Positions 1 to 52,803 of a stretch of DNA of 64,000 bases are shown here, piece after piece. Under the pieces are notes generated by a model that saw only the letters and a program-made list of their open reading frames with translations, was not told the origin of the DNA and made no database searches. This DNA comes from Patiria pectinifera (taxonomy: Eukaryota; Echinodermata; Asteroidea; Valvatida; Asterinidae): positions 18,998,863 to 19,062,862 of the forward strand of contig CM057135.1 of NCBI GenBank assembly GCA_029964075.1. Reading direction: 5' to 3'. Both the position numbers and the translations under genes were made by a program. Positions within the stretch are counted from its first letter, which is position 1, and each line of letters opens with the position of its first letter.

Positions 1-43
1 CCTCAATAAACAGTTGATACAGGGGCTGGATCTGACAAACAGC

Positions 44-167
44 CTAATTGGTGTCTTGACTAGTTTCAGGCAGGACCAGGTTGCCCTCATGTCTGACATT
101 AAAGGCATGTTTTCCTAAGTCTCGGTGTCCAGGGATGGCAGAGATCTGCTGAGGTTGTAATGGTGGG
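44..167 (-). pseudogene. Tail of the gypsy pol ORF
   Basis: The last about 40 codons of the gypsy polyprotein lie here in the minus direction, ending at a stop at 44-46. They are proline/glutamine-rich (PPLQPQQISAIPG). They are separated from the integrase part (901 onward) by the MITE at 168-900. The upstream codons of the ORF that ends here (168-340) come from the MITE, not from pol. That this is the continuation of pol is inferred from orientation and position. Confidence 0.5.
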
Positions 168-900
168 ACAATTCGTCGCAGAGCTGACAAACCGACGAAT
201 AAGCGAAAACCTTGTTTGGAGTAATTCGCGTTTGAAGTTGGACACTTCTCCGGGCGCCGTATTTTACCCTTAATGTTTCGATAAAAAACTTTTAGGATAT
301 ATTCTGAATAAAATATGAAACTAAGTATCCACCAGGTCACTTATTTAATCAAAGAAGTTGTGCGATATGGTTTTATTTGATCGTAAACGCATTCGTCAGT
401 TTGTCAAATTACATTAATCTGCAATATCCGGTTGTTCTTCACACTGTTTGTATGATATTCGTCAGTTTGTCGGATCGCGCGTGCACGCACGCGCAATCCG
501 ACAAACTTGCGAATAACATTCGTTGGTACTTTGAACGCACACCTTACATGAGCTGGTTACCAGCGAAATGTTTGTATGCTATTCGTCAGTTTGTCGGATT
601 GCGCGCGCACGGCGCGCCAATCCGACAAACTGACGAATGACATTCGTTGGTACTTGGAACGCACACCTTACATAAGCTGGTTACCAGCGAAATTTCGTAT
701 TCGTCACTATGTCAAATTGTGGATTTGCTTTTGTGATTTTTTCGCCACAAGGGGGGCTATGAGTCTCAAAATCCAGACAAATGTTAAGAATTTTGGCATA
801 AATACTTGAAAGAGCAACCTTCATAAAGCCTAAAAAAAACCAAAAATCGAAATCGCCAAAATGGTCGATTCGCCGGTTTGTCAGCTCTGCGACGAATTGT
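168..900. mobile_element. MITE with ~32-bp terminal inverted repeats and two internal hairpins
   Basis: The two ends are inverted copies of each other: ACAATTCGTCGCAGAGCTGA at 168 and its complement ending at 900, continuing to about 32 bp with one visible mismatch. The centre holds two tandem units of about 125 bp (from about 450 and about 575). Each contains a long palindrome (457-514 and 581-638) whose arms read ATTCGTCAGTTTGTCGGAT. There is no transposase. It interrupts the 3' end of gypsy pol. I see no convincing target duplication. Confidence 0.75.
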
Positions 901-3900
901 GACATCAAGAAACCCTTGACAGAGTACTGCCTGAAAGTACATGTCTTTGGTGCGATCTCTTCTCCTTCATGTGCGAACTACACTTTGAAGAAGACAGCAG
1001 ACTCTATATACAGGCATGTCAGGGTTGACACGGTCAGAGACTACATGAACAGCCGGATTCCAGTGATCTGCAAGTTTCTGCTTGCCTTGCAATCCAAAGT
1101 TCTTTACCAAGACCCGGTCACCTGGCCGGAGGGTCATAGCCTGTCACGCGCCTGTCATGACAAACTTTGTTTGCACTGGCTAACTTGACAGATTTGTCTT
1201 TAGCAAGCTGATATGCTCGAGACAATTGCTCTTTCAATCCTATGACATAGTTGGAGTGTTCAGCATGAGAGTGACCATCAGGGTTCACCCCAAACCGCAG
1301 GTCAATTGGAAGCCTTGCCTCCCGGCCAAACATAAGGAAGTACGGGGGAAAACCTGAACAGTCATGTTTTGTACAATTATAGGCATGTACAAGGGCACTG
1401 ACGTAGCGGCTACACGTTGCCTTCTTCTCACTCTCGAGAGTCCCCAGCATGCTCAAGAGTGTTCTGTTGAACAGTTCTGGCTGGGGATCTCCCTGAGGGT
1501 GGTAGGGGGTAGTGCGTGACCTTTTTTTATACCAAGTAAGTTGGTTAATTCCTTAACGACCTTACTCTCAAAGTCACGTCCCTGGTCAGAATGTAGGCGC
1601 TTGGGCAGGCCATAGTGCACAAAGACATTTTCCCAAAGGATCTTGGCGACGGTACGGGCCGTTTGGTCTTTTGTGGGAAAAGCCTGCCCGTACCTGGTGT
1701 AATGGTCCGTCACAACAAGTATGGGCTTCTTGTTTGTGCTATCTGGCTCAAGGGATAAAAAATCCATGCACACCAGCTCCAGTGGACCACTTGTCCTGAT
1801 ATTCACTAGAGCAGCAGCGGACTTGGAGTTTGTCTTTCTGGCTATGCATCGACCGCAGTGCCTCACCCAGTCGTCGATTTCCGTGGCCATGCGGGGCCAG
1901 TAAAAACCTGTCCCGAGCGAGTGCCACTGTGCGTTCAACACCTAAGTGCCCCGGCTCATTATGGAGGCCCCTGATCACCTGGATGCGATATTGTGTAGGA
2001 GCACAAACTGGTACACTTTCCTGCCCAGGTTGTTAATGACACACCTGTACAGGACTCGGTTGGAAATCCTCAGTTTCTCAACTTCTTGCAGGATAATCTT
2101 TGCCTCAGGTTGGAATTCGGCCAGCGAATCCGGTTTGTTTCCACCTTCAACACACAGTATAACCTGTTTGATTGATAGATCATCTCGCTGCACCTTGGCC
2201 CAATCAACCATTTGGGAACTTGGCTCAGGATCATACGAGTCAGGCAAGGCATTTGCATGAGCAGGGAAAGAGTGGACAAGAGGGACAGAATCTGGAGTTG
2301 GGGAGTGAAGCGGATTTGTTGATATGGCCACACCATGCACTGCACCTTGAACATGTGTTGGGGAATAGAGGGCACATATGGCCTGTTTAAGACAAATCTC
2401 ATCCTTGACATCTGCAATTCCTTTCAGGCGGGCTTCCAACATTCCCAGTCTATTTTGCTGCTCGTGTTCATATTTCTGGCTGAATTCTAAACCATGTGGC
2501 CTACGCGATAGCGCATCTGCATCCACATTGGTCCTTCCTGGTTTGTATTGGATGGAGAAGTCAAACGAGGAGAGTGCTGCAAGCCATCGGTGGCCTGTTG
2601 CATCCAGCTTAGCTGAGGTCAAGACATAGGTGAGTGGATTATTACCCGTCATAACCTTAGTCCCTTTCGCCGTGTACAAGTAGTCTTTGAACTCATCGGT
2701 AATCGCCCATTTTAGAGCTAAGAACTCCAACTTGTGTGCTGGGTAGTTCTTCTCACTTGGGGACAATCCCCGACTGCCATATGCAACTGTACGGAGTTTA
2801 CCGCCTTGATCCTGATACTCCACCTAAGCCGTCTCTACTCCATTAATGTGGAGCACGAACGGTTTTGAGAGGTCTGCAAAAGCAAGTACTGGTACTGTTA
2901 CAAGCCGTTCCTTTAGAGTGAGGAAAGCCTGCTCACGTTCTGCAGTCCACAGATCACCAAATGGCTCATCAGCCTTACGAGTGACAGAATCGGAATTGCG
3001 CCTGAGTAAAGGACGGGCCAGAGTGAAGGCCTCGCTTCTTGTGATAGACTACACCCGCCGTCAGGTTATTTAGGGGACGGGAAATCTTTGAGTAGTTTTC
3101 GATGAACCGCCTATAGTAGCCGGCAAAGCTAAAAAAAGATCTTAATTGTTTTACATTGGCAGGCCGAGGCCATTCTTCCAGGGCAGACATCCTTTCAGGG
3201 TCTGTTTGAACACCTTCTTCAGAAACCACATGCCCAAGGTATTTAACAGATCGACAACAGAGCTGGCACTTTTCGGGGGATACTTTCAACCCGAATTCCG
3301 CCAGCCTGTCAAGGACCTTTATGAGACGCTGCTCCATTTGTTCTAAATCGCTGGCAAAGATGATTAGGTCGTCCATATAAACACAAGAGTCTCGACCATG
3401 TTCAGTCCGGACATGCACTTTTCCATTAACCTCTGGAAGGTTGCTGGCGCACCCTTCACCCCCTGAGGCATGCGTTCGAATTGGTAGAAGCCAAAAGGAC
3501 AAAGAAATGCTGTCTTCTCTTTGTCTTCTTTGCACATCGGGATCTGGTAAAACCCAGAATTCAAGTCAATGACAGCGAACCAACAGCTGCCATTGAAACA
3601 GTCGATAACTTCCTGAACAAGAGGAACTGCATACTGGTCAGGAATCGTTCGGGATTGCAGGGTCCTATAGTCCACGCACATCCTCAAAGAACCATTTTTT
3701 TTCTTACAAACACAATGGGTGATGCGTAAGGACTGCGCGATTCTTGGATAATGTTTTGGTCGAGGAGCTGCTGGAGGTATTTACGCAAATCTTGGAAATC
3801 GGATGGAGCTATACCCTCCTAGATCTTTCCCGAAAAGGGGTGCTAACCTTAATTTGGTGCTCAGCCTCTTTGGATACACCCAAATTCCAATCATGCCGGG

Positions 3901-4776
3901 AAAACACCTGAGAATGCAACTTGTGTTTTGTCTAGGATCCTTTGTTTCCATTCAGGCGAGATTGGGCCCCATTTGAATGGGAGGTCCTCTAAATCATCGC
4001 CAACAAAGGGTGTCGGTCCTTTTCCGACCGATGCCGACGAAGAGAAAGCCGTGCACTTCACGCCTTTAGTTGGGGCCTCAACAAACCATTCAGGTTGGAA
4101 AACATCAGACAAGGAGCAGTTTCCTTGGATAGTGATGGGCTGATTGGACTGGTTGGTAACCATCAGCTTGACCGAACAAGTGGAATTACCAGAGAGTTGG
4201 GTGATGAAAGGCATCACCTCCAACCCTGATGGAACCGGATGCCTCATACGGGCCTCCACGAGAGCAGGCGTGGGCTTCCGTAATGTGCACCTGAATGTCC
4301 CAGATACACTTCTTTGCTCACCTGGTATGAGACAGACAGTGCGTTTGGCCCCGGTCCTCACAACACCCAGTTTGTCATCCTTGGAGATTTTCCTTTCATT
4401 TGCAATGTCCCTGTAAATCTGCTGGCAGGTAGCACTGATATTAAGATGGTTTACAAAACCCATGCCAGCTTCCTGCCGACATAAGTCAAAACAACTCCGA
4501 AATAAACCAGAGTTTGTCTCCACTATCACCGGCTGGGCAGTTGACTGCAGACTATCGGAAACAACTAGAACAAATGTTTCGAACTGATTGGCGGTCCCCG
4601 CAAATGAGTCGTCCAAACCCATTGACACATAACTCCATCCCAGATATGGAATTTGGCCACCACCCCCATGAAAAACCATAAGATCCTTCAAAGGGTAAAG
4701 CTCACGGTTTAAGCGAGCGAACAAGCTCTGGCAAATTAAAGTGACCTGAGACCCACTGTCTAGCAGACAATGAGTC
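901..4776 (-). pseudogene. gypsy pol: protease, RT, RNase H, integrase (broken)
   Basis: In minus-strand order: a retroviral-type protease site LLDSGSQVTL near 4750-4780; a long linker (3891-4724); reverse transcriptase at about 2975-3690 with FYQFERMPQGVKGAPATF and the catalytic YMDD box; RNase H at about 1975-2823 with a DADALSRRP end; an integrase zinc-binding region near 1850-1975; and a DDE core with MDFL and HSDQGRDFE, then a degenerate glutamate region near 1500. Frames change near 4830, near the RT/RNase H border (a stop immediately precedes the RNase H reading frame at 2824-2826) and near 1500. The family function is copying and integrating element RNA. This copy cannot encode an intact polyprotein. 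Confidence 0.85.
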
Positions 4777-6113
4777 TCAGTGCCATCGACCCAACACCGC
4801 GTCGTTATAACATTGCCGACTAGTCCAGAAATTTACAAGAGTGCCCCTGTCTTCAGCACCCATATTATAACTCCTCTGGCCAGACCCACGTCGTTCACCC
4901 TGTGGTCTAGGATGCGTCATTGAGTGACGGGGAGCAGGCACTGGGAAAGCCGAGTGCTGGAAGAAATGAGGGGCAGAGGGAAAGAATGATGGCACATGTG
5001 GTGAAAGATGCTGCAGATGATGTGCTCCTTGATGTTCAGCCGGCTGGCTCCGATGTGCCAGCTTGGTCTTTGCTTTGTCCTCTTGTTTCCTCACCAGGGA
5101 CAAAAGGGTGAGAAAAGTGGGAGGCAGGTCGACTTTGTCCTTTAAATGAAGGTTCACCAGTAACATTTCGTCGAAGGTGATTCCCCTTATGAACTGCGTG
5201 AGGCAGACCCTATTGGACTGGTCCTGAGGGATTATACCCCTCCTAAGGGCTTTCCGTAGGGTTCCCTGTAGCCTAGTTAGGAACTGGGAGGGCTTCTCCT
5301 CTCTCCTCTGAGTCATACTGAGGAATTTGACAAAGAGCTCATCATTTGTTTCAGTATCCCCAAAAGCCATGTAGAGGGCTTTTAGGTAGTCACGGGAGGT
5401 CGCAAGTGGATTCTCCCTACGGAGATCATTAATGATGCTAAGGGCTGGTGCCCTTAATGCCTCTCGTACCCTCTTCCTTCTCTCCGCATCGTCGAGGTCT
5501 TGCCATTCATCCATTTGGCCCTCGACGTGGTCTATCCATGTTGTGTAGCCATCTTCGTCCTTTGATGGTACGGCAAGTCCCGAAAACATCTCAGTTTTCG
5601 GTAATTGGCTGCGAGAGTGCAGCGAAAAAAGGAATTAGAAAAGTCAGAAGGAAGGGGTTGGGAAACAGAAGTCCCAACAGAGGTGGAAGGTATCGCCGGA
5701 ACTGACTCAGCAGAATTAGGTCTGGGCCTGTTCCGCCATTCGTCAAGGGCTCCGTTCTTCGTGAGGTCACTGATACGGACTCGGCTGCTCTTGGAAGGAA
5801 AGTGAGAGGGAGAATCATCCAAACGGATGACGCGACAAGAAGTCGGGAGTGGTTGGAAGTTCAAGGTGATTTCCGACCCAAGCTTAAGGAAAGCGACAGG
5901 TTTGTCAAAATCACAGAGAACGAGGCTCAGATCTTGCCCCACGTCCTCTCGTCTAGAAATGCCTACAATATTGGGGAGACAATCTGTCAGTGCAAGCACA
6001 ATGGTTTGGGTAGGGGTTGCAACCAACTTCATAGACAAAAGTATAGAGTGACTCGGCCTAGTCTCTTTCTTTTTGCACCAGTCCAAAGCCATTTTCTTAA
6101 GTGATTCCTCCAT
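4777..6113 (-). pseudogene. gypsy gag, PNMA/Arc-like, split by a frameshift
   Basis: Two overlapping minus-strand ORFs (5532-6113 and 4777-5589) make up the gag. The first starts with a stretch resembling the PNMA N-terminus (LKKMALDWCKKKE). The second carries the capsid-like domain with LRAPALSIINDLRRENPL and SQFLTRLQGTLRKALR, typical of gypsy/PNMA gags. They are in different frames, shifting near 5600. A His/Pro-rich tail follows. The product would form the capsid. The shift could be a mutation or a programmed change, but the many lesions downstream favour decay. Confidence 0.75.
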
Positions 6114-6399
6114 ATTGACAGCACGTCAAATTTGCCAGAAATATACAATATCGCAATTAAAGGGTTGGACTAGTATGAATGTTGGCTCTCTGTTGCAGGT
6201 TTGTGTCAATTCCTGGAAAATCTGTTATGTCAAAGCAATTAACAGCCAATACACGGGGAGAGACACATCATACACATATACAACAAAAATAATGCCAAAT
6301 CGATAATAAACAAAGTTTCTTGCATACAAATTCCCTACCAGTCAGTACAAAATTGACTCATCAGAATCAGTGTCAGTTAAATAAATTTCCCGGACAAAA

Positions 6400-6687
6400 T
6401 GTAACCCGTGGTTCACCTTCATCAAGCAGGAACCAATTTCGAGTATTGACCCCCTCTGAAAGAATACACTGATTTACATTTAAAGATTTTGCATGCACAG
6501 AACTTGGTTTATTAATTAATAGTAGGCACAGAAAATGTCACAAGACATTTTTATGCACATGAAACAATAAGATAAACACAAGCAAGAATCAAAGGCAACA
6601 AAGTGAGCTCAGAAAAAAAATACAACGGCGTCAAAATCTAATATCAAAGTTCTTCACAGAAGCTCCAAGGCTCAGGAGGACGATGAT
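6400..6687 (-). repeat. Candidate gypsy 5' LTR part
   Basis: The region between the gag leader and the BEL insertion begins TGTAACCCGTGG on the plus strand and has an AATAAA on the minus strand near 6510, as expected of an LTR read leftward. The rest would lie beyond the BEL element, from 30052. With no second LTR in the window this rests on position and end bases only. Confidence 0.35.
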
Positions 6688-7288
6688 TGTTATGGAATGG
6701 CAATGGGGGAAAGAAAATGACCGGTGGAGAGACTGGGCGTAGCAGACAACGGTACATTTATTAACATGTTCTTGCTTGTGTAGATAAAAAGCCCTGGTAA
6801 GCACCGTGGTATCCCTTGTTAAACACTGAGGATCGAGTGCCCATCATGAGCCCATAAGCCCATTATCCCTGGCAGTGGTAAGCCCGTTCTGAAGGGTAAC
6901 AAGGAAACAATGACAGAATTAAACAAGTGCAAGAGAAACACGATGTCAAAAACCTAAATACATGCACATGTACATTCACTATATATATATATACGGTGGA
7001 TCGATGTTCTTTACATGCGTGTATTTCCGACACTTTGAGATTGAAGGATTTGAACCCGAATTAACAACTGAATAATCTCTCATTATAAGAATCGATCATC
7101 TAATTATTGGAATTATACTATAAAAGATCATAAACAGTTATTATAAGGGAAAGAGATGCCCTCACCATCTTTATCCGGTCATGGTTTTCCCCCAATTCGG
7201 CTTGCCGACGCTTGACCGTTTACACACGCGTTTGGATCGCGCCGCAAGGTGGCGTCCTTTTAAATTAGCGGTGGCACTTTTCTCAACA
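6688..7288 (-). repeat. BEL 3' LTR (601 bp)
   Basis: Plus-strand ends are TGTTATGG (6688) and TCAACA (7288), so it has TG...CA ends read either way. It matches the three 5' LTR pieces base for base over long stretches, including the TATATATATA tract near 6980. It contains short regions similar to those at 28996-29286 and 29872-30046. Confidence 0.88.
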
Positions 7289-9037
7289 CAGCCGCAGGAG
7301 GAGCAGGAATGGCGGAGAATGCCAACGGCTGCTTTCACCCAACTGACTCAGCTTCAACCCTCTGGTGAGGTCGTCAGCTGGATTGTTTGCTGAATCTACG
7401 TACCGCCACACTGTGTGGTCAGTAAGTCTCTGAATTTCAGCAATTCGTGCTCCAATGTATCGGTTGTAACGGCAGGACTCTGACTTGATCCACGACAACA
7501 CTGTTGTACTATCACTCCAACAAGTGATTGGCATCTTCATCTTCATTTCGTCTTCTAGCAGCTCCACCAACTCGGCTCCACTAACAGCTGCTAGGAGTTC
7601 CAGGCGAGGTATGGTCTGGACACGCTTTGGAGCCAGCCGTGAGCGGGACATCACAAACCTCACACTGACTTCAGACGACGGAACTGTAGCTCTTAAATAA
7701 GCCACCGCACCATATGCCTTTTCAGAGGCATCGGTGAACACGTGTAGCGCATACTTGACAAGGTCGGGCTCAAAGTGAGATGGAATATAGCACCTAGGGA
7801 GGTGAATACTGGATAAATCGACGAGCTCTTCTCGCCACTGGATGTGCTGCGCTCGTAGCCCTTCATCTCCTTTATCAGGGAACCCATCATCCCAACCCAA
7901 AGGCTGTTTCCATAGCTCCTGCAGCAACATATTGCCTCTGACTATATCGGGCATAAGGTATCCAAGTGGGTCTTTGCCAGCGCACTGCATGACATCACTA
8001 AGTACAGTTCGTCTGGTCGGAGTTGGCCAGTCTTTCAGAGAGAGCTGGTACGTCAAGGCATCATCCCTAAAGTTCCATCTCGGCCCCAGGGCTGCTTCCT
8101 CTGGGGAATTGCCACTCAGGTTGATCCAGCACTCTGCATTGTTGGAGCGAGCTTCTAGAGGGAGATCATTCACTACAGAGGGGACATTGCTGGCCCACTT
8201 GACAATAGGGAACCCGCCTAAGCGTAATGATCGGACCAACTTCTTCACCAACACCTTCGCTTCTCCGGCAGTTGGTTTGCCATCCAAGCAGTTATCAACG
8301 TAAAATGCTTCCAGCACACTTCTGGTTATGTCTGGCTCCTGGATCACATCTCTCACATGTTTCTGGAGAGCATATGTGGCGCAACAAGGGCTGCAAGTTG
8401 TCCCAAAGGGTAAGACATTCCACTCCAACTCATCTGGGTCAGCAGTGGATCCAAGTTCCCTTCAGAGAAAGCGAAGCGCTGATCGGTCTTCTTCAAGGGT
8501 GAGGACACGGTGAAACATGGCCTTAATGTCTCCTGAGACGGCTACAAGGTGTCGACGGAACCTCAACAAGACTCCAACCAGAGTGGAGCCAAGTGTGGGG
8601 CCCGGGAGGAGATTGAGAGACTCTCCCAGATATTGAAAGGCGCAGTTAAACACCAGTCTGTGTTTAACATTCTGCTTGACAACGTGGTATGGAATATACC
8701 ACTGACGCTGGGTGAATTTCTCTCTTCCCTCAGCTGTCAGAGTGCGAACAAGTCGAGCCTCTTTTAGCTCTTCAATCTTCTTGCGGTGGACATCAGCAAG
8801 ATCAGGGTCCCTTTGAAGGCGTTGTTCATTTCTTCTGAGAGCTGGCAAAGCTGAGGATGCTGGACTGGAGAATGTGTCTTCATCACGTCTCCACAGGAGT
8901 GGTGTTGCTACCCGCTGGACACCATCCAACTCGACAAAAGTAGATTCGGATTCCAGGATATCTACGGCTCTTTGATCCTGCTTGGAGCGGGTCACCTGCT
9001 TACGTTCATTGTACATTTGTACATCATTTTGCCACAT
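7283..9037 (-). pseudogene. BEL pol: reverse transcriptase and RNase H
   Basis: Two ORFs (8462-9037 and 7283-8428) separated by a frameshift near 8450. The first has RT fingers with WYIPYHVVKQNVKHRLVF and SGDIKAMFHRV. The second has the Pao-type active site AFYVDNCLDG, the Peptidase_A17-type linker (LGYLMPDIVRGNMLLQELW) and an RNase H domain (HVFTDASEKAYGAVAYL; IPRLELLAA; CWSDSTTVLSWI). The ORF ends a few bases inside the LTR. The integrase that should follow RNase H in BEL elements is absent, so this is a deletion derivative. Confidence 0.88.
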
Positions 9038-17661: not shown

Positions 17662-18161
17662 NNNNNNNNNNNNNNNNNNNNNNNNNNNNNNNNNNNNNNN
17701 NNNNNNNNNNNNNNNNNNNNNNNNNNNNNNNNNNNNNNNNNNNNNNNNNNNNNNNNNNNNNNNNNNNNNNNNNNNNNNNNNNNNNNNNNNNNNNNNNNNN
17801 NNNNNNNNNNNNNNNNNNNNNNNNNNNNNNNNNNNNNNNNNNNNNNNNNNNNNNNNNNNNNNNNNNNNNNNNNNNNNNNNNNNNNNNNNNNNNNNNNNNN
17901 NNNNNNNNNNNNNNNNNNNNNNNNNNNNNNNNNNNNNNNNNNNNNNNNNNNNNNNNNNNNNNNNNNNNNNNNNNNNNNNNNNNNNNNNNNNNNNNNNNNN
18001 NNNNNNNNNNNNNNNNNNNNNNNNNNNNNNNNNNNNNNNNNNNNNNNNNNNNNNNNNNNNNNNNNNNNNNNNNNNNNNNNNNNNNNNNNNNNNNNNNNNN
18101 NNNNNNNNNNNNNNNNNNNNNNNNNNNNNNNNNNNNNNNNNNNNNNNNNNNNNNNNNNNNN
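17662..18161. other. Assembly gap (500 N)
   Basis: Exactly 500 unknown bases, probably a placeholder of unknown true length. It hides the junction between the Ngaro gag and exon 1 of copy B. ORFs drawn across it are meaningless. Confidence 1.
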
Positions 18162-18872
18162 GTTAGCTGGTACCGTATTATCCGGGGGGAAATGACACAT
18201 CTTCGTATGAAACTGTCGACTTGCATGTTGGGCAGGGAACTTCATATGAGTCATTGTGGTAAAACCACTGATACAAGCATGATGCACAAAAGTTATGCTC
18301 ATAGGGGGTTTGGACGGAGGGAGAGCCAATAATACATTGGAATCTCACACAAATAAAGAGTGTTTCTTCATGTGGGTCTTTGCCTAGTATGCAGAGCTTG
18401 TGTGAAACTGTGTGTTCCTCTTTGATCTGGAGATTAAATGGATCCTCGGTAGAATCCCGAAAAGAAATCTTAGTGTCCTTGTGTTTACTTTGTGCAGAGT
18501 TACCAGTAGATTTAGCTGGACGGCCCCCTTTACTTGCCTTCTTTCAGAGAGAGTATCTTTCACATGTTGTACATGTTCCAGTCCGAGTATGTTTTGGCCA
18601 CTCTGAAACACAAACTGTGAGCAAACTAGTCACACTCGAATCCCGTGTCTGGTCTTTAAGGTGCCTCAAATTTCTTGCACATCTCCAACACACCTTTGTG
18701 GGATGACACTCAGGATCATCCAGCCAAACGCTGACGTTTACAGAGAGCAGTTCTTTGTTGAATTCAGAACACACAGTTCGGCTTTCTGCTTGCTCGAATC
18801 TCTGACCGAATTTAACTTTCCACAGACCCTACACAGCCGTTCTACACACTGCTTGTGGAAATCCAAACTCAT
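18162..18872 (-). pseudogene. Copy B RAG1-like exon 1 (zinc/RING region), broken
   Basis: Matches copy A exon 1 in order: ERLCRVCGKL near 18840, HPTKVCWRCARNLRHL, WPKHTRTGTCTTC, then a RING at 18170-18340. Lesions: a frameshift after the first zinc motif (near 18780), a TGA at about 18541 and loss of RING cysteines (CPIC reads CVRF; PCEHNFC reads PYEHNFC). It retains CASCLYQWF and VPCPTC. It runs into the N gap. Confidence 0.85.
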
Positions 18873-19586: not shown

Positions 19587-21119
19587 CTCGGCCACGAGGT
19601 GAGACGCTCAATTTTGGCGCGAATGAGTACACCTTTGTCACCATAGAGTCGCTTTAGTGTTAACATGGCCTTGGTGAAGGGGGTTTGGTCATGTTCCAGT
19701 CCCAAAATATCTTTTTTGGGCTGGCCACTAAGCTTTGACTTTACAATGAAGTATTTCTGCAACTCACTCAAGTGTATCAAGGGCTTTATGCAGCCGTCGA
19801 TCATGGTTTCAAAGCACCGGAATTCAGATGGATCGCCTCCACTGAAATGGGGGTACTTCCATGTTTATTCCACCTGCTGATGCAGGTAGCATGGAACTCA
19901 GCATCATCTGGTTCATCAAAGCAGGACTAAAGGGCACTGGTGCCATCATAGGTAGATCTGCGGATGGGCCCTTCGGGGGCGGAGACTCCATGGGGGGAGT
20001 GATTGGCTGGGAAGTTTCATGGCAAGTTTCCGTTGAAGACTTACCAGTTGAAACTGAATTCACCCATAGATCACTGAAAAGACCAGCCAGAGGAACTGGC
20101 TGGGTTCTCACAGGCACTGGTGCACACGGTATGGGCGTGGTCAGGAGTGCCGTCGGTGTGGGACTGGTGCCCAACTGACGAGAGGATTGCAAGGTTGCAA
20201 TTGGATGACCGGAAATGTCCGACGGAGAGGCGGACATGTGTCCCAGGGGTGCTATGGTGCCAAGTGAAAACGAGTTCTGGGGTGTGATCAATGTGGCAAC
20301 TGTACATGTACCTGTATTAGGAAATGAAACAGATGTGGGAAGAAAAGTAGGTCCAGAGGACACACACATGTATGGAAAGGAATTCACAAATGAACTGCTA
20401 TGCAGGGGAGCAACAATACTGGATTGAGACAATGCAGCGCTCAGCGGGGGCAATGCATTACACGGTGGGGGCAATGCAACGCTCGGTGAGGGTAATGCAT
20501 CGCACGGTGGGGGCAACGCATTACTCGGTTGAGTAAATATGGCGCTCGGTTGAGGCATGGGAAAATGCGACTGTACGCTGCAGCTTTCCCGTAAAGCATT
20601 GCTTACATTTGCAGACAAGGTTTGCCGCTGAGGAATTTTGTAGCCTGCATTTGGCCCTTCGGATGGTGAGAGATTCGGTTCCCCCAAATTGTCTTTGGAG
20701 ACAAGTTCTGAGTCAAGTTTTGCATGTGCAAGATTGATCTCGGCGTTCCGCAGTTGCAGTTCCATCTGCCTGGAAAGGTTCTCCTTTCTCTTGAGAAGAT
20801 GTTGTTCCTCATTCAGCGCTGCTAGTCGAGCTTGCTGAGCCTCAAGCAGCCGTGCGTCGATCGCGTCTTGCTCTGCTCTTGATTTCATCTCGATCTCCAG
20901 GCGGAGATGGGCAAGCGCAAGTTCTTGCTGTCGCAGGTGAACATTCTTCTGTGACCGCTGCGATGAAGACGCATGGCTGCTGCTTCCGCTCTTGGACGAT
21001 CCTTGGACACTACGTTGATCATCAAGCAGTGGTATGGAAACAACCGGTTGGATTTCTACAGGAGGTTCTGCAGCATGGGATCGCAGAACTCGGCGTGTGA
21101 TATTTGAATCAGTTTCCAT
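19587..21119 (-). pseudogene. BEL gag, 5' half
   Basis: The long minus ORF 19824-21119 starts METDSNITRR and has a Ser-rich stretch, a charged coiled-coil region (AHLRLEIEMKSRAEQDAIDA...) and a long Pro/Ser/Thr-rich linker with LPPPCNALPP-type repeats. After a one-base shift near 19850 it continues as GGDPSEFRCFETMIDGCI and FTKAMLTLKRLYGDKGVLIR, typical of BEL gag. It is cut by copy B at 19586. The start lies just inside the 5' LTR and primer site. Confidence 0.82.
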
Positions 21120-21177
21120 TGTAACCGCACAATAACTGTCAAGCTGTTGATTGTGAAGCTAGGTGTATGCTCGGAAC

Positions 21178-21195
21178 ATCACGTCTGGGTCACCA
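21178..21195 (-). other. BEL primer-binding site
   Basis: On the minus strand the 5' LTR ends ...CCATAACA, then TTT, then TGGTGACCCAGACGTGAT. A TGG-initiated 18-mer in this place is the expected tRNA primer site. The tRNA identity was not determined. Confidence 0.7.
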
Positions 21196-21198
21196 AAA

Positions 21199-21330
21199 TG
21201 TTATGGAACGGCAAATGGGGAAAGGAAATGACCGGTGGAGAGACTGGGCGTAGCAGACAACGGTACATTTATTAACATGTTCTTGCTTGTGTAGATGAAA
21301 GCCCGGGTAAGCACCGTGGTATCCCTTGTT
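21199..21330 (-). repeat. BEL 5' LTR, piece 1
   Basis: Matches 6688-6822 of the 3' LTR (TGTTATGG... to ...TCCCTTGTT). It breaks exactly at the copy A terminus. Piece lengths 132 + 291 + 175 (duplications counted once) give 598, against 601 for the 3' LTR. Confidence 0.88.
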
Positions 21331-21384
21331 CACGGCCGTCTCAGCCCGAAATAAAGAGGGCGCCCTCAGTGTTCTGAAAGGGCC
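21331..21384 (+). repeat. Copy A left terminus
   Basis: CACGGCCGT is the terminal inverted repeat, and ACGGCCGT within it is an 8-bp palindrome. A-rich AATAAAGAG starts 19 bp in, followed by the palindrome GGGCGCCC and CTCAG. The last part is also present in copy B and is a candidate transposase-binding site. Confidence 0.8.
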
Positions 21385-23901
21385 ATTCGAAACTCGCGCT
21401 TGTTGTTTACGTGCGTCGTGCGCTACTTAAAAAATATTCAAATCGGTCAGGCAGGCGCGCCTGGTGTGTTTGTATTTCTCGTATGCCCATTGGTTAACGG
21501 CTTGATGCAAATGAAAAGGTATGCAAATAAAGGGCAAAGGTCACATTTACGTTGATATTTAAATACCAAACCTTCTAGACGGCCCTGGCAGGAACTAGGT
21601 CGCAGTTTGTGTGGGTCACTCACGTGGTGTAACTGCGAGCTCGCACGAAGGGAATGTTTTATGAAGTATGAAAAAACCCTCATTTTTAACGGGAAAAATC
21701 ATTTTTGATGATTTTTGTGGCATACCATTGGTGTAATCGATAACTACTTGTGTGGATTGAGATGGTTTTAAGGTAAGGGCAAGCATATTTTTTGTTTTTG
21801 AATGCCAGGAAAAGAGGGTAGATTTTGAATGACTGCGAGAGAAAAGGTGAGCGTATGCATGTATTGTACTGTGTGTACATGTACATGTACAAGTAGTATG
21901 TACATGCACATCGTACTGTACATGTACATGCACATTGTACGGTGTGTATGCATTTGTACGTACATGTACAAAATGTACATGTACATACAGTGGTTACCCA
22001 TACAGTGACATACACGTACATGTACATGTACTTCCAACTTCCATAGCATTTACGCTGTGTAGCTGCACACATGTACACATGTCCGTCCATGCAATGTGCG
22101 CATGAAAACTCATGCATATGATTATGAACATGATGAAGAAAGAAGTACTAGGCCTAGCTAGACAATATTTGTGGAGGATCAAACTGAAATGCAATGAACT
22201 GCCAAATAATCATTCCTTTATTCACACAACGATTACAATTACAATTTACGAAAACAAAAAACCTGAATGTTAACATGGTTAATATAATAATTATTCATGT
22301 AAACTGTACAAATTGTTATATGAATAGGCCTAGGCTATATGTACATGATTGTATACCACCTGGATAGACACATTTGAAACTCCAAATCATCACGATGTTT
22401 GTTTGGAAATAGTTATTCATACTGAACTACATTGTAGTTCATCCAAAAATGTATTCCATACCAGGCAGGGCAAGGAAAGTCGTTTATACTGCACTTATCT
22501 GATTTTTCAACAAATTAAATGTCTCCTTTCAAATTCCATCCTATAAAATTTGAGTCTTCCTTTATTTTTTGATGGAAAAGGTAGGATAGCTAGAGAAGCT
22601 TTTAAAGTATTAAATATTGTAGGCAGAGGTTACATTACATACTATTTTATTTAAGTAGCACTTTCACAATAATATGTACCAAGAATAGACGCGGGAGAAA
22701 TCATAGAATTTTTAAATGCGCGCATGCTGACTGACATGGTACTGGAAGCGCAAAAGTTTTAGTTGATGATGCGTACAAAGCAACGTGTGAACATTTGCCC
22801 CATGTTTAGCAAGATGGCGCGTATACAGTAAAACTTATTTAAATCATGTTTAAAAAAAAATATGTTTAATTATATGTTAAATATTCCTCTGTCCTTCACC
22901 ACTTCTCTTTTTTCTATACAAATTTGAAGTTTTGCAAATACTGATCATTGTAATTGAGGTACAGGTTTTAATGCATACATGCAGATCACTTTGATCATAG
23001 TTGATGCAGCAAACAGGATTCACTTTTATTATTTACAAATGTACATGTAGCATGATGATAGAAGTGCAGTTTTGCTAGATTGCTATACAAGTGACTTATG
23101 GATGGAACATGTTTCATTTATTTTTGTAAAATATGTACTTAGTATATTCTTGAATCACCTTAAACCATCCAGGCTTCGTCATATACAATATTCATTTGTT
23201 TACCTTATTCCTATACATAACGAAAAATGAAAACGTGGTAAACTCTTGTGAACAGCTATAAGTAGTGATTTCATTTTCTTTGTATGTATATTCTGTGTAT
23301 CCTCTAGGTACTCTGGAAATAAGAAAGTACAAGAATAATGGCAACATGTACTCAGTACCCTACACTTGCTGCATTTGGGCATTTCATCAAATGAGTGCTG
23401 ACACACCTGTTTGATTTTCAAGTGATGGGTAAGTTGGGAGTTTTTGGTTTGTGTTTTTACGACAAGACTTTCGTCTGTTGCCTGCGAAACTGCCTGCTTC
23501 GCCGCATGTTATCTGCAAAACTGCCTGCTTCGCCGCCTGTTATCTGCGAAACTGCCTGCTTTGCTGCCTGTTATCTGCGAACCTGCCTGCTTTGCCATCA
23601 AGTGCCCGCTTTGTAGTTGAGTGCCCACTTTGCTTCGCATTTGAGCGCCCGCTTCGCATTGGAGCATATGCATGCAGTGATTAATTCTAGTACATGTACT
23701 TACTACTGTACTATACATGTACATGTGTAGATGTACATGTACCGGTACATGTATGTCAACTTCGTTTCATTTGATATGTTATAGACAATATGATTCTTTT
23801 CTCTTTTTCAGGGTAAGGCCCCAGTTAAACTAGGACTTAAAAATATTTATGTGTCAGGTGACTGAAGTAAATTTAAGCTCTCCCTGAAAGAAAATATCCC
23901 T
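21385..23901. other. Left arm of copy A: non-coding, CATGTACATG-rich
   Basis: About 2.5 kb downstream of the transposase stop. 21860-22040 is packed with overlapping TGTACATG palindromes, and more occur at 23690-23755. No credible protein. Sequence at 22200-23400 is plain and AT-rich. Confidence 0.7.
23470..23605. repeat. 31-bp tandem repeat
   Basis: About four units of GCGAAACTGCCTGCTTCGCC plus GCCTGTTATCT, grading into related ...GCCCGCTTTG... sequence to about 23655. It lies just beyond the 3' end of the copy A gene. ORFs rich in LPASP/CLLC across it are repeat artefacts. Confidence 0.85.
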
Positions 23902-26900
23902 TCATTCTTCAATTATTCTCTTTCTTTTTACACCTGCAATTACTTTAGAGTTGACCTCAGGAGCTGTTGCGATGTGGTGGCGCCTCATCACAGTCATCAA
24001 CCGTTGCAAGTTGTCCTGCATCCCACTGACTGCCCGGCCTGTACGGTTGAATTGAGTGTGGATGAGCTCCCCACCCTGCTCATTCAGGAGACCGAATCCC
24101 ACACCGAAGCGTCCCAGCTGGTTCACCGCATGATCCTCTAGGAGGTGCATTTTGGGAGTAATGCTGGCCTCAGGAAAGTGCTGCCTGTATGTGTGCAGGA
24201 AATCCTTGATGCATGCATCTGTGTGTATGAGAAACAGTGAGGAATAAGAGTGACAAACAGCAGTGAATCCAATCGCATCGTTAATGCATAAAGGACGATT
24301 TCAACCCACCAATCATTTGCAGGTCAGCATGTGTGATGCGGTTGGTGTGGTTTATCCCATGGTGCACATCGCTGAACTTCAGGAGCACATCACTGAATTT
24401 GTTGCCGACCAGTGCTGCCTCACGTATCATCTCCTGGTGTTTCTTTACGGGAATGTCATCACATGGGAGATTCTGAAGGACTTTACGAGGAGCAGAGGTC
24501 AGGTCAGCTATGACATTTGGCTGTATGGAACAAAAAAAAAACAGGGAAGTAGCAGTCATATTCTAATTCTGCATAGTTCTTTTGATTCATTCCCAAAATA
24601 ACACAATGAATTCGTGTAATGATTGAGTTACCTGGCAGCATTTGTGGACATGGTTTCCGACAAACGACTTCCCATGATAGGCCTGGCGTTCTACCTTGTG
24701 GCGCTTCAAAACATCATCAAGGGAACCTGCGACAGGTCCAGATCCATGGGGAAGGTCAAGGACAACACTTTCCTGTATCAATTAACCAAAGGAAATTTAG
24801 TTATTATTTGCAACTGCCAAGTGCATGTGTTGTCAAGATTGTAAATGGAATCGGCTGCTCGCAATTACAAAGAAACTTTACCAAATCTTTGAGCTGTGCT
24901 CGTAGTGTGAAGGCACGATTTGCCATATTTTTGAAAACTTCGTCGGCATGCTGGAGATTGTTTTGAAGCAACTGAAGGGGAAGCTCATCCTCAATCTCCT
25001 CAAGCTCATCGTGCTTCTTAGCAATATCCTGCTTCAGATTCTCTTGTTTTAAGAACTCTGCAGTGACTTGTTGGTCGAAGTTGTTCTCACAATCTTCTGA
25101 GGGGTCAGCATGCTGCACGCGGAGTTTGAAGATTTTCAAGTCGATCCTGTGACACTCTGCTTCAAGCATGTCAAACAACTTCTTGAAGACCCCCAGGGAT
25201 ATATGCAGACTTGGAAGCACAACCTATGTATGAATAATACAAACAAATGAAATGCTTTTAAATGTGTTCGTTTTTAAATGTGTACATGTACATGTAACTG
25301 TCTTTTTTTAATATTGACTTTAAAGACTTTCTGGCTCACGTGATCAATATCGACGGCAATCATATGCTTAGCAACGACACTGTGAGACACATCCTTGGCA
25401 TGGCTTTTGCGAGAGCCGTCTGCTTTGTATGCCTGAAAGTCATCATCGAGGCTTGATAGTGTCCTGGGGGTTGCTAAATGCTCACGTTCATCTGGAGGAA
25501 GTTGCATTTGCTTGCGGGTTGTATGGCAAAACAAGCAGCAAAAACGAGCTGTTGGGGGAAAAAATAGAGTAATGTTACATGTACATGTACAGTATAAGAC
25601 TAGCACATGTAAAAAATGTGGTTCATAGATGCACAGGCATGCACAGGTACATGTATTTGCTACTTGGAATTGAAGCATTAACTTACCATTACAGCTGCAA
25701 ATTCCATAGGTCTTCGTCAGCAGCTCGTAGTCCCCAAAAACGAACACTCGGAAAGACTTTCCTCTGTAACAAGTTATTAACAGAAGTTGAAAGTTGAAAT
25801 TGTTATGAAAGATGAAAGATCTACAAGGACAAATGTACATGTATGTACCAATGTATGTTCATGATATTACTGATAAGATATCAAAAACAATGACAGACCA
25901 CGTACCTCCAATTCTGAGTTCTGAGGCTTGACACTTGATGAAGCACAGGCTTTATGTGTTGTAAGTTTGCCGTTGAATCTTGAGCCTCAAAACAGCAGAA
26001 CACAACTGTGTTTTTGGATGAGTTGGGATGGACTGTGTTGACAATCTGGAAGGCAAATTTAAATGACTTGCCCCCCTTATCACCACCAACCTTTATCCAA
26101 ATTTCATCATCTGGAATGATGCCATCATGCCAAGTGAGGGTTCCATTTCTAAATGGAAACGGAAAAAAAAAAGATAGAAATATCACACTTCATGAAATTT
26201 AAGTCTGGTGCAGCTGTAACTTTTGATTTAAAAAAACACACACCAAAACTTACAGTTCATGCCTATTCAGGTAGTCATCGATTATCCCATGCAGATCCTT
26301 GACATGCACATATGGAGCATCAAGTGTCTTCATGCCATCCATACCGTTTGCTTTATTTGATGGGAAAAGCATTGGTTGTAGGGACCCAATCAGGTTGTCA
26401 CTAAGGAGAGCTGCTTGTCGCTTCCTCATGGCCCTCTCTGAAGTGAGGCAGTCAACACCTCCAACGTATCTGCATAAAATTGCATTTGAAAATTAAAACC
26501 ATGGACTGGCATGCAAGTACAATGTACATGTATGTATATTTGTACATACATATGCATGAATATGGGTCATTTATTTTGTTTTATTCAGAAAAATAATTAC
26601 CGTCTTAACTTTCGAAGTTGTTCCCATGTAAGCTGACAGTCATGCATCATTGCCAGGCTTTGGTCAGGTCCCATGGCATCACAGACTGTAGTTTTGTTGC
26701 TGCAAGACTTTGCAGGGGGCGTGCACTTTGGTGGCCGCTTCATTTGCACATACGCAGGCTGAATGTGAGAAAGTATTTTGTAAAGAAATTAAAATATTGT
26801 TTTGCTCCCCATGTACATGAATATTTAAATTTCTGTAATGAATTAAATTTTGTAATGAATTAAATTAATTATTTGAATTTGTATTTTTTACCAAATCATA

Positions 26901-28254
26901 TATTATTAAACAGCAATGCGTGTCTCTCTCTCTCTCTCTATGTATATATGTTCTGGGTAACACTGGCTAAATGTAATGGCTTCATTTAGATTTACATTCC
27001 TAATAATTCTGATATAGTGGTTTGATAAACTTTTGACTGATTATTTGTACTGTTTTAAACAGGAAAGGTTGGAATATTAACATGTACTCTATTTTCACGT
27101 TAATGTACATGTACATGTTTGTAATAATGTTTGTAATATTTTATTAATTAATAATATATCAGACATTTTATGTATATACTATTTTATAATAATATTTATT
27201 CAATAGTTGCAATCTAAACTGAAATACAAACCCTTCCCGGTGTTTTTAGCTGGGCAACTCTGTCAGTGTTTAGGAGCTTCAGCCATGTCCAAGCATCGGA
27301 AGCTGCTTCAATTTCCTTGGGTATGGGGGACCCTTTGGAATGCCTAGAAGCTTTGGTCCTTAAGACCTCTGCTGCTTTGATGACCTCTGCGTCCACTCTA
27401 GGCTCATTATTTTGGGGTCGGGGGGTCGGTGGGGATGAACATATGTCACAGTGGCAAGTGGCTGGTTTTGGGGGCTTGGTTGGGCATGTGTGGGAACCCA
27501 TTTTGTCCACTTTGCCAACACTTCCACACTTGGAGCATACTGTGAGTAGAACATCAAGTTGGAGTCGAAGGACTCTTGGGATTGGGGAAATTTGTTTGAA
27601 ACTTGTTAATTTCCTACATACTGGACAGGGGACCTCAGCTCTGTTCTTGTAAGTAAACCACCCTGCCAAACAGTCGGCACAGAAATTGTGTTCGCAGGGA
27701 GTCTGCACAGACGGTGAACCCAAGATACACTGGCAGATGGGGCAAACAAAAATAGTTTCCTCGTCTTTACTTTTACCAAGAATATCAATTAATGGCGTGA
27801 TACATGTAGAGTTTTCATCCACATTGAAGGGATTAGGTGGCAATTCCGAGTCATGCTGAACTTCTGTGCTTAGTGGGCCTCTGTATATTTTAGTTTTAGA
27901 AGACCGACCCTTACTGTTCAGTGTCGTGCATACTTTACATCCCCCTACTCTTGGGTGCTTCTGCCAAGAAATGACTTCAATCCTGGTTGTGGAGGGTGGG
28001 TCTCTGTTTCCTGATGAAATGTACCTTAATGACCTTGCACATCTGTAGCAGACAGACTGAGGGTGTATCTCGGGCTCATCAGCCCACGTACTTAAATTGA
28101 AGGCAGTCAGAATTTCTTTTCTGTAGTTGCTGCACAACACAGGCTTAGTGTTACTCTTTACATTTCTTTGTGTAACAAGTCTACGGCCACAAATCCGGCA
28201 TAATTTATCAAGAGAAGAACGATGAAATTCCATGTCTTGTAGAAAATAAACCAA
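23902..28254 (-). CDS. RAG1-like DDE transposase, ten exons, intact
   Basis: Exons (minus): 27232-28254, 26601-26758, 26254-26469, 25906-26148, 25687-25763, 25340-25548, 24882-25223, 24632-24772, 24310-24520, 23902-24218. All introns are GT/AG, phases agree and there is no internal stop. It gives 978 codons from 28254 (971 from the Met at 28233). Domains: zinc motifs C19/C22, H64-C69/C72 and H100-C106/C109; a C3HC4 RING (C171, C174, C187, H189, C192, C195, C210, C213); and C240/C243 with H255/C257. The core has D489 (KVGGDKGG), D558 (FVFGDYE), C577/C580 (CLFCHTTR), a Glu/Lys-rich inserted helical segment (~690-750), H898/H903 (MHLLEDH) and E924 (NEQGGE). These match RAG1 D600, D708, C727/C730, H937/H942 and E962 in order. 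D558 to the first Cys is 19 residues, as in RAG1. Expected role: cutting and pasting the surrounding element. Splice choices are by eye. Confidence 0.9.
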
Positions 28255-28981
28255 GATTTAATTGGATGATAAAAACCTCTTTGTGTGTCCATCCATCAGT
28301 TGTCCGATGCAGCGAACCATCCCCATTGTCCGTGCGTGCCGTGTGTGTGTACGTACACATACGGTGAAAATGTAAACATTCCCACAGATTCATATTTCCC
28401 GCGCCACACGTACATGTATATGGGCCGTACGTGCACACAATACGTGCGCACATAATGCACGCATTTCAATGGGGAAACTCCGCACAACCTTCGCTGTTCG
28501 CGTAAAAATGACCGTGAAATCGACCCTCAAATCTCAAAAGTTATACTTGCCCTCACCATTCTACTTGGAAAAATACTGCCAAGAGGGGTATTTTAACCAA
28601 ATTTTTGTGCCAGATGTTCGGGAAAATGACGATTATTTAGTAATTTGGCTTTTCAAAAAGAGTGTAAAAATCTCGGTGTATCGAATTTCTGCCACGTACG
28701 GATTCACTTCAAACGTAATTTTATCATGTTTTTAAGCAAATTTACAATATTTTAAGTCTAGAAAATAAAACATCATCTACATCTGCAATAGTTATGGACA
28801 CATCTTTCATTTATTCTGCAAGGGAGATAAATGGGAACAAATTTTATGGCGCTATCGGCAACGGATGTATACGCCTGTTCGCCGCCATGTTTGTTTCTGG
28901 TGTTAGAATTTTTACTGGAGTAATCAATTTGTTAAACAAACGAACGCTACAAGTTTCTTTGCGTGCGTGCAGTGTACATGG
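28255..28981. other. Right arm of copy A: promoter-side non-coding region
   Basis: About 730 bp upstream of the transposase start. It has GTACGTACAC-type sequence at 28340-28450 and a plus-strand ORF of 88 codons (28469-28735) without recognisable domains. It must hold the transposase promoter. I see no clear TATA box at a set distance. Confidence 0.5.
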
Positions 28982-28991
28982 AACGGCCGTG
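28942..28991 (-). repeat. Copy A right terminus
   Basis: Read inward: CACGGCCGTTCCATGTACAC, then GC-alternating sequence, then CAAAGAAAC beginning 30 bp in. Copy B shows the same start with C-to-T at position 7. Confidence 0.8.
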
Positions 28992-28995
28992 TGTT

Positions 28996-50284: not shown

Positions 50285-51527
50285 AGATTTTGCATACATG
50301 TAGCCCAACTTCTGTGGCCTCAGTATTGCTGCCTACCTACGGGAGTTTAGTCCAAAGCCTGGCGCACCTTTTTGGGGCATTTTTTGTTCACACACCACTG
50401 CATACGATTGTATTCTGTGATGCTTTATCTTTTGCCCCCCGGGAATATAAGGTAATCTTTGTTCAATTTTTCAGAGAAATTTGGACATCTTTCTGGAGTC
50501 CTCATGGGCACGTTTCGCACCTAACTCCTCACAGTAGATTGGGAAACCAGACTTGTGGCCTAACGTACAGCGCAGCAATACAGAGGCCACACAAGTGGGG
50601 TTAGATTTTGCAGGGAAAATATTGAAACCTTTAATGCTCAGTCTTGGGCAAATGATTTGCAATCCCAAACCATACTCGTACCATACTTTCAATGGGAGCG
50701 CTGTTCAAATCCGATCACTTTTAATACTCCATGTACATGTATATTAGGCCAAAAAAATTAATAAGTCGGTCTCTGGTCAGCCCGCGCGTCGATTTTAAGC
50801 ATGCGCGTCGATCTTTTTTTTTTTTCCAAAATGTTCTGCGGTAGCTCCAACAGCGCCCTCTATTTCCGCACCTCCTCATTTTTTTGTACCAAAGAGCACC
50901 AAGGAATGGGAAATTGCACCAACGCAAATGATCGAAAGCACCAAGGCAAATTATGGAGGAGCCAATGTACATGAGGACACCAAAAAAGCAAAATAGTACC
51001 ACACCTTGTCTGTACAATCCAAGCTTGAAGAAAAAAAGAAAAAAGAAAAAAAAAAGCCGCGTGGCTGTGCCAATTCTGGAACTTTGGTCTGACCAGAGAC
51101 CGAATAATTTTTGTTATGGCCTTACAAAAAGTGTACAAATACATGTACCCTAACTGTACGGCTTTGTACGCATTTGGTGCACAGATGGACATGATTACCA
51201 GTATCATTTTTTTGGTGTCTGAGGGGGGGGGGGGGTGTTACACTCACTCACTCACTCCGTCGCCCACAGGCAGGCTCGATGATGGTTTTTCCAAGTAATT
51301 CGGTCTTGCATGAGGATGCCAGTTAATTTTTTTTTTGGGGGGGGGGGTTAAGATTTTCTTTAATTAATGAATTTCTACTATGAAAAAGTAATGGGGGGGG
51401 GGTGACAGCTGGGTTTATTCCCCCCCCCCCTCCCCTTCTGGCTCCGTGCCCGATCTTGTAAATATACTGTGCTAGATAATTCTAAGCTGGTGTTGGGTTT
51501 TTTTTTTTGTTCCTCATCTTGTTACAG
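50285..51527 (+). other. Rest of the RecQ intron
   Basis: No coding content. GC/AT-mixed sequence, poly-A near 51030, then G- and C-runs (51225-51440) with a short CACT microsatellite at 51240. The acceptor is TTGTTACAG at 51519-51527. Confidence 0.6.
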
Positions 51528-52803
51528 GGGCCAATCATCAAAAAAGACATGTGCTTTCCGAAAGCTGTATGGAGAAGTTGGGCAACTTCGAACTCTATTG
51601 AAGCCTGGCACTGTGTTTGCTGCCATGACAGCGACAGCAAGTTTTTCCACTCGAATGGCTGTTGCTGATGCACTGCAAATGAGAAATGCAGTGCTTGTTC
51701 AACAGAGTCCCATCCGTGACAACATCAAGCATGTTGTCCTGAACACAAAGCTCAAAGATGTGGAGGAAGTCTTTGACTGGCTTTGTGATGAAGTGTTCAG
51801 GAAAAAAGAAAAGATGGAGCGTATCATTGTGTACTGTCAGTCAAGGAAAACGTGTGCTGAACTTTACTCCATTTTCTACTCCCGGCTTCCAACAAGTCAT
51901 CACCAGTTTTTCAACCTGTATCACACTAATACAGAGAGTGATATTCAAGAGGACATTCTCCTCAGCTTTTCGGAGCCCGAGGGAGTTGTGCGGTTGTTAT
52001 TTGCAACAATAGCTTTTGGACTAGGAGTTGATGTGAAAGGAGTTCACAACGTAGTCATCTTTGGAACACCAAGTGACATGGATGATTACATTCAACTGAG
52101 TGGTAGAGGTGGCCGTGATGGGCAAGAGAGTTTAGCACTTCTCATCCAGTACCCTGGTTACCGAAGAACGCCCCTTGGGGAACAGATGAAGGACTTCACT
52201 ACCACACAGCAATGTAGAAGAGAAGTAATCCAGGCAGCATTCTCAGTGGCAGGCTCACAAACTCACAAAATTGTTGCACATAACTGTTGCGATATCTGTT
52301 CAGCTTCTTGCTGCTGTGGAGAGCTTTTTTGTTTGGCTCCTCCAAGTTATGTGGAGAACAACTTCAAAAAGAAGCTACATGTGCCCTCATCACCAGTCAG
52401 TTCCAAAGTACCGACTCGTTGTGTATCACCAGAAGAATACACATCAGTCCAAAATGGTCTTCAAGAACTGAGAGAAGAAGTGGTTGGTACATTGAAACAT
52501 GTATATACTGGACCTGATGTAGCGTGAGGCCTGTCAACCAGCACAATTGCCAAAATCTTAAATGAGCTTTCATTTGCATTTTCTTATTCACACTTCTGTA
52601 AAAGATATGTGTTCAGTAGTAATGAAATAAGAGAACGTGTTTGGGCTATTCGTAACAGCAGCCTAATCAATTCATCACCCACTGGCAGTGCTCGTGTCAC
52701 CCAAGGTCTTTCTGATACCGACTCTAGTGATGATGAATGTTATGAAGCTGTTGATGAATATGCTGAGCCACACGTAGAACACAGTGATGATGACAGTGAC
52801 TGA

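Follow-up and report, generated by a model that had tools for sequence, protein, structure and literature searches.

The window, a stretch of 64,000 nucleotides of the Patiria pectinifera genome (C7:18998863-19062862; genome searched, 613.5 Mb on 1,020 contigs), almost certainly carries an autonomous and structurally intact DNA transposon of the Chapaev family (CMC group), in which a single ten-exon gene encodes a 971-aa transposase with a Chapa domain, a RING domain and a DDE core. The whole element spans 21331-28991 (7,661 bp) and its gene lies on the minus strand.

Ends and insertion site

The element is flanked by a left target-site duplication (TSD) at 21327-21330 and a right TSD at 28992-28995, both of which read TGTT. 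The terminal inverted repeat CACGGCCGT is located at 21331-21339, the gene-downstream end, and its reverse complement at 28983-28991, the gene-upstream end; the best local match between the two element ends stops at these 9 bp. The left flank ends with ...CCCTTGTT and is followed by CACGGCCGT at 21331, and the right end reads ...ACGGCCGTG up to 28991 and is followed by TGTT. The 5´-CAC...GTG-3´ termini, with CACGGCCGT at both ends, are present in all three full-length copies found in the genome, and each copy has a 4-bp TSD (TGTT in the window copy, TGGT and GATT in its two siblings). The TSD of CACTA elements is 3 bp. Because the 9-mer alone is common in the genome (872 + 882 places, compared with 691 + 703 for the reversed control), the ends were judged from the full-length copies and not from the motif.

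A query formed by joining the left flank to the right flank (255 bases) has 16 matches in the genome, seven of which span all 255 bases uninterrupted. Three of the seven were aligned. One (C7:19005551-19005806) is window 6689-6944 and matches at 96%; the other two, C7:13854024 and C7:13847073, match at 92%. Each contains one TGTT and lacks the element. These uninterrupted targets with their single TGTT show that the 4-bp duplication is genuine and that the transposon landed inside a pre-existing repeat. The preliminary description had proposed an intact transposon with an exact TGTT duplication and CAC ends, and its coordinates prove exact. Chance as the source of the ends or the gene was considered and is ruled out by the two further full-length copies, which have other TSDs, and by the empty sites.

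The older host repeat that the transposon interrupts is observed at window 19824-21330 and 6689-8461. A Pao-type peptidase ORF (7286-8461) lies near the uninterrupted copy at 6689-6944, and a Bel/Pao retrotransposon is thus a possible identity for this repeat. No Pfam match at E ≤ 0.001 is obtained for the 444-aa ORF at 19824-21158.

Predicted gene structure

The predicted gene comprises ten exons and nine GT-AG introns, with 971 codons and a TGA stop. Donor and acceptor consensus was judged by eye among 3,888 GT-AG combinations that are open into exon 10, and the predicted splice choice is supported by its conservation in the two sibling copies. Exon 1 (27232-28233, minus strand, as are all the following) encodes residues 1-334, which include the Chapa zinc region (1-119, PF12560), the RING (164-207, zf-RING_2) and a further CxxC. 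Exon 2 (26601-26758) is bounded by GT-AG and open in all three copies, and exon 3 (26254-26469) is placed by the splice model and the sibling alignment, as is exon 9 (24310-24520). The remaining exons are assigned from the splice model and protein alignments, in the case of exon 4 also from Pfam. Exon 4 (25906-26148) carries D482 of GGDKGG, within the DUF1280 match at residues 357-535, and exon 5 (25687-25763) carries D551 of FGDYE. The C(2)C motif CLFC (570-573) is encoded by exon 6 (25340-25548), the LH motif (L641-H642) by exon 7 (24882-25223) and the conserved RQAYHG-SFVGNHVHK by exon 8 (24632-24772). Exon 10 (23902-24218) contains H891-x4-H896, the EQGGE glutamates E913 and E917, and the stop TGA. 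The ten exons and the open frame of the preliminary description are retained, and its approximately 975 codons become 971 in the present predicted model; its D489, D558 and E924 are D482, D551 and E917 here, a constant offset of 7 that we put down to a slight difference in splice choice.

Sibling copies and coding constraint

When the left 801 bases of the element are used as a genome query, two other copies of this end are found, and both align from element base 1 to 7661. These siblings, further copies with CACGGCCGT ends of the kind that the preliminary description proposed to count, carry the same gene, are 7,570 and 7,537 bp long and show 95.6% and 94.9% full-length identity to the window copy; one is located on the 10.6-kb contig C180. 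Aligned across the three copies, the ten exons have no gap column in 2,916 nt and no internal stop, and the 18 splice dinucleotides are kept, with GT and AG at all nine introns in all three copies. Within the coding sequence, the window copy is 98.7% identical to either sibling; outside the exons, the figures are 96.0% (139 gap columns) and 96.3% (212 gap columns).

The dN/dS ratio is 0.20 between the window copy and the first sibling (dN 0.0071, dS 0.0352) and 0.16 between the window copy and the second (dN 0.0062, dS 0.0385). The two siblings differ from each other by few changes (dN 0.0035, dS 0.0063, dN/dS 0.56). The constraint on exon 1 (dN/dS 0.34 and 0.39 between window copy and siblings; 13 and 14 differences) is weaker than that on exons 2-10 (0.15 and 0.09; 25 and 24 differences), and the five exon-1 differences between the siblings all alter the protein. 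The 23 checked zinc, catalytic and motif residues are identical in all three copies. The siblings thus keep the gene intact under coding constraint, which supports the predicted splice model and a recent mobility of the lineage.

Domains and relatives of the encoded protein

The N-terminal half of the protein contains CxxC motifs at 12/15, 62/65 and 99/102, a C3HC4 RING with the ligands C164, C167, C180, H182, C185, C188, C203 and C206, and a further CxxC at 233/236. In the C-terminal half, CLFC (570-573) is followed by HTTR, and H891-x4-H896 is also present. The RAG1 landmarks listed in the preliminary description (three zinc motifs, RING, second finger, CxxC, TR and H-x4-H) are therefore all located in the protein. 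Pfam models place a Chapa domain followed by a RING, with RAG1_imp_bd (PF12560) at residues 1-119 (E 5.4e-6, 26.6 bits, cut-off 23.3) and four RING models above their cut-offs at 164-207 (zf-RING_2, E 7.6e-8), and DUF1280 (PF06918) matches residues 357-535 (E 8.8e-19, 68.4 bits, cut-off 25). The RAG1 core family PF12940 is absent among the 11 Pfam families listed at E ≤ 5, a scan in which the HMMER filters discard most matches above about 0.1, and the Pfam search at this threshold thus gives no direct match to the RAG1 core. No match at E ≤ 5 was obtained for Transposase_21 and DUF1258, the Pfam families of other CMC transposons. The best 60 of 81 matches in a PDB sequence search are nearly all RING proteins, with the RAG1 N-terminus at E 0.08.

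A search of 5.8 billion proteins finds 28 relatives, all marked DUF1280. The closest are two sea star proteins of 989 and 1,025 aa, aligned along 99% of the query at identities of 46% and 44%, the 989-aa protein of Asterias amurensis being the best; the others come from sea urchin, sea cucumber, crinoid, lancelet, Hydra and sponge or are unnamed proteins. Both Asterias proteins (P0001 and P0002) align to the window protein through its N-terminal zinc motifs, which predicts that one gene carries both halves in Asterias too. Among nine relatives scanned with Pfam, P0014 has RAG1_imp_bd, RING and DUF1280 above cut-off, five have two of the three domains and three have DUF1280 alone. In a whole-protein tree of the window protein and 26 of the 28 relatives (758 columns), the window protein is placed beside the two Asterias proteins with support of 97/94.

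Aligning the window protein with 10 of the 28 relatives shows no variation at D482, D551, C570, C573, L641, H642, H891, H896, E913 and E917. When 26 relatives are aligned, the two D, two H and two E are invariant and C(2)C is kept at ≥ 90%; the LH motif is in neither the invariant nor the ≥ 90% list of this alignment. The third catalytic residue of the RNase H-fold DDE core is most likely E917.

Work on Chapaev transposons includes that of Kapitonov and Jurka (2007). According to PMC4079192, Chapaev elements are marked by TSDs of 3-4 bp, by CAC/GTG ends and by the motifs C(2)C, LH and H(4)H; PMC3985635 names DUF1280 as the Chapaev transposase. The window element has a 4-bp TSD, CAC/GTG termini, the C(2)C, LH and H(4)H motifs and DUF1280, and judged by its sequence the encoded protein is a Chapaev transposase. 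CACTA/En-Spm and Mirage transposons share the CMC group and CAC-type ends with it and belong to other Pfam families, Transposase_21 and DUF1258 (PMC3985635, PMC4079192).

Relation to RAG1 and RAG-like transposons

The Chapaev protein was compared with RAG-like (RAGL) proteins by profile-profile alignment, with a Chapaev profile built from the window protein and 10 of its 28 relatives (11 sequences) and a RAGL profile built from 24 of 47 proteins that were found using a broken RAG1-like copy from the P. pectinifera genome as query. With hhalign E-values that each refer to a single comparison, the whole profiles align at probability 99.9 (E 5.8e-31) and the N-termini at 99.9 (E 5.3e-31); the Chapa region alone reaches 99.3 and the RING region alone 98.4. 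The cores align at 95.9 (E 5.2e-9 over 505 columns), and the part from residue 470 on at 87.4 (E 3.7e-6 over 294 columns). In the controls, Chapa and the N-terminus against the RAG core give 0.4 and 0.2 (<1%). These comparisons suggest a relation to RAG1 for each half, arranged in the same order; the N-terminal half appears closer to RAG1 than the core does, and the core relation appears remote. The core alignment pairs D482, C(2)C, H(4)H and E917 with the corresponding RAG1L residues, and it does not pair D551 with the aspartate of the RAG1L MIDEKL motif. The term 'RAG1-like protein' in the preliminary description thus suits the N-terminal half (PF12560) and overstates the core, for which the profile match to RAG1 that it called for is found with hhalign, D551 remaining unaligned, and not among the Pfam families. 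An independent study groups RAG1 with DUF1280 in a small clade of the RNase H-like superfamily (PMC3985635).

The N-terminal tree (303 columns, unrooted) contains 26 Chapaev rows (the window protein, 16 other copies from the same genome and nine database proteins) and 19 RAGL rows. The own-genome loci are L012-L028 without L021, and the database rows P0006, P0009, P0013, P0021, P0024, P0026 and P0051 (the last a RAGL protein) were left out. Chapaev and RAGL rows lie on opposite sides of one branch with support of 98/94. The placement of several long branches is unsure (P0010, P0014, P0019 and P0023 of Chapaev; P0053, P0056 and P0066 of RAGL), and the program warned of a possible false joining of P0014 and P0023. 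Because the groups split at one branch, a recent exchange of the N-terminus is disfavoured and one old common architecture fits; an ancient single transfer of the N-terminus would give the same tree pattern.

RAG-like transposons (ProtoRAG, TransibSU) and vertebrate RAG1 share with the window element the order of zinc motifs, RING (where present) and DDE core, the C(2)C and H-H motifs, and CAC ends (PMC7204232, PMC4411706). Features of RAG-like transposons that the window element lacks are the PF12940 core, the CCGHC C-terminal tail (no cysteine occurs beyond residue 869 of 971) and the 5-bp TSD of the RAGL/ProtoRAG/TransibSU type, which is 4 bp here. RAG-like transposons also carry a RAG2L gene; in the window element, 10 of the 17 ORFs of ≥ 60 aa outside the gene were scanned for RAG2-like kelch and PHD domains and gave no match at E ≤ 1. 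The claim of the preliminary description that both RAG1-like halves occur in one gene outside the Transib/ProtoRAG lineage is borne out by the 4-bp TSD and the DUF1280 core.

Comparison with described Chapaev transposons

Kapitonov and Koonin described in 2015 two Chapaev subgroups with the RAG1 zinc (Chapa) domain followed by a RING (PMC4411706). The window element therefore adds a fresh example to a described type. It shares with these elements a Chapa domain, a RING and a catalytic core in one transposase, CAC ends and a 3-4 bp TSD, and no categorical difference from them was found; what it adds are a new host, three intact copies and ten exons. The bearing on RAG1 assembly that the preliminary description put forward is not new, since the inference from such Chapaev transposases was already stated in 2015 (PMC4411706). 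Beyond that work, the sequences point to a split of the Chapaev and RAG-like N-termini at one branch with no sign of recent swapping. Within open-licence literature, no sea star Chapaev was found in print; 'sea star' and Chapaev co-occur there only in PMC4411706, where 'sea star' appears once, in the legend that describes its TransibSU element. Aplysia has N-RAG-TP (Panchin and Moroz 2008), a transposon protein that resembles the RAG1 N-terminus and is described in PMC8355894 as consisting entirely of RAG1-N-terminal-like sequence, whereas the window protein joins such an N-terminus to a DDE core.

Proposed mechanism and alternative origins

If it works like RAG1/Transib and other DDE transposases, the enzyme would pair the CAC-ended terminal repeats and excise the element, and the excised element would then be joined to a target cut with a 4-bp stagger, giving a TSD like that observed. 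The Chapa-RING part would aid dimerization, and it could have E3 ubiquitin ligase activity directed at the transposase itself or at host proteins.

CAC ends, an N-terminal zinc region and RING as in RAG1, and the remote core similarity (hhalign 95.9, E 5.2e-9 over 505 columns) would also be expected of a member of the RAG-like (ProtoRAG/TransibSU/Transib) lineage that lost RAG2L. That reading is contradicted by the TSD length, which is 4 bp in all three copies compared with almost always 5 bp in RAGL elements (PMC7204232), and by the core family, DUF1280 in place of PF12940 at E ≤ 5; the CCGHC tail is missing and the N-termini are separate from those of RAGL at 98/94, and we consider such a descent extremely improbable. 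The much stronger similarity to RAGL at the N-terminus (E 5.3e-31) than in the core (E 5.2e-9) could instead reflect a recent chimera, in which a Chapaev core was fused late with a RAG1-type N-terminus from a RAGL element. The 26 Chapaev rows and 19 RAGL rows on opposite sides of one branch argue against this, as does the occurrence of the architecture or its parts in sea star, sea urchin, crinoid and sponge relatives, and a late fusion is very unlikely. A domesticated, non-mobile host gene family would account for long open frames in many diverged copies and for the constraint on the coding sequence, but the exact ends of the window copy, its TSD distinct from those of the siblings and the empty sites leave this explanation with next to no credence.

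The element is thus best described as a Chapaev transposon that is intact, multi-copy and probably recently active, with a full RAG1-like transposase layout. It offers a test system for the origin of RAG1, in which the question of whether transposases already had the zinc and RING parts of the RAG1 N-terminus before V(D)J recombination arose could be put to a bench test; the idea itself is not new. A broader reading, which we regard as a long shot, is that Chapaev and the RAG lineage inherited the Chapa-RING-DDE architecture from a common ancestor, with the window element as a living active representative, and that local transposition or heterochromatin targeting, with the RAG1-type N-terminus involved, confines the Chapaev families of this genome to one gene-poor 23-Mb chromosome block. 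If so, the RAG1 N-terminal region would first have served transposon target choice or self-control.

Genomic distribution of Chapaev copies

Contig C7, which makes up 7.3% of the genome, contains 82 of the 124 exon-1 matches listed. After merging within 5 kb, at least 61 of 89 loci are on C7, 60 of these 61 in its first 23.3 Mb (the window is at 19.0 Mb), with at least 14 other loci on C22 and at least six on C20; Chapaev copies in the C7 counts are not mutually independent. By the author's count, 58 of 78 DUF1280 family matches are on C7. Hand counts of the matches listed place 31 of 94 hAT matches on C7 (24 in the first 23.5 Mb), 15 of 110 piggyBac matches (nine), seven of 133 protein kinase matches (none) and one of 129 RRM matches (none). 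All these counts are lower bounds, with the best candidates scored (120 of 464 for exon 1, 127 of 1,293 for kinases and 150 of 244 for RRM). Among the matches listed, Chapaev is the most concentrated on C7 of three many-match transposon groups (Chapaev, hAT and piggyBac). Tested against hAT and piggyBac, the C7 concentration proves to be only in part a general transposon effect. The C7 block is rich in transposons and free of listed matches to two host domain families, protein kinases and RRM. The first 23.5 Mb of C7 may be poor in genes or sex-linked, or may be an artefact of scaffolding.

Identical or near-identical exon-1 N-termini occur across chromosomes, in L012 (C7:19109479) and L013 (C6:11109740) and in L014-L016 (C20, C20 and C7), which suggests that several other Chapaev families have been recently mobile. 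The Patiria miniata Chapaev protein P0004 matches eight pieces on C20, with identities of 94-99% in six of them and of 85% and 88% in the other two. Pieces of RAG1-like (PF12940) transposons give five matches in the genome (L053-L057, at C7:13017885, 5681019, 40842313 and 41403910 and at C21:13982476); four of the five contain stops and four are on C7.

Other features of the window

A second, decayed Chapaev exon-1 fragment (18187-18780, minus strand; 42% identity, one TGA) adjoins an N run (17662-18161) near the intact element. Another retroelement is located at 1978-5634 on the minus strand, with a PNMA-type gag ORF at 4780-5634 and an RT RNase H ORF at 1978-2823. On the plus strand, an ORF at 38128-38844 matches DUF6589 (E 1.7e-16), and a RecQ-like helicase C-terminal piece (Helicase_C, E 2e-17) is observed at 51406-52524 within the transposon-rich block. 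An ORF at 59157-59975 on the minus strand contains ten tandem VPAEVPIPDLPMVSD-like 15-residue repeats.
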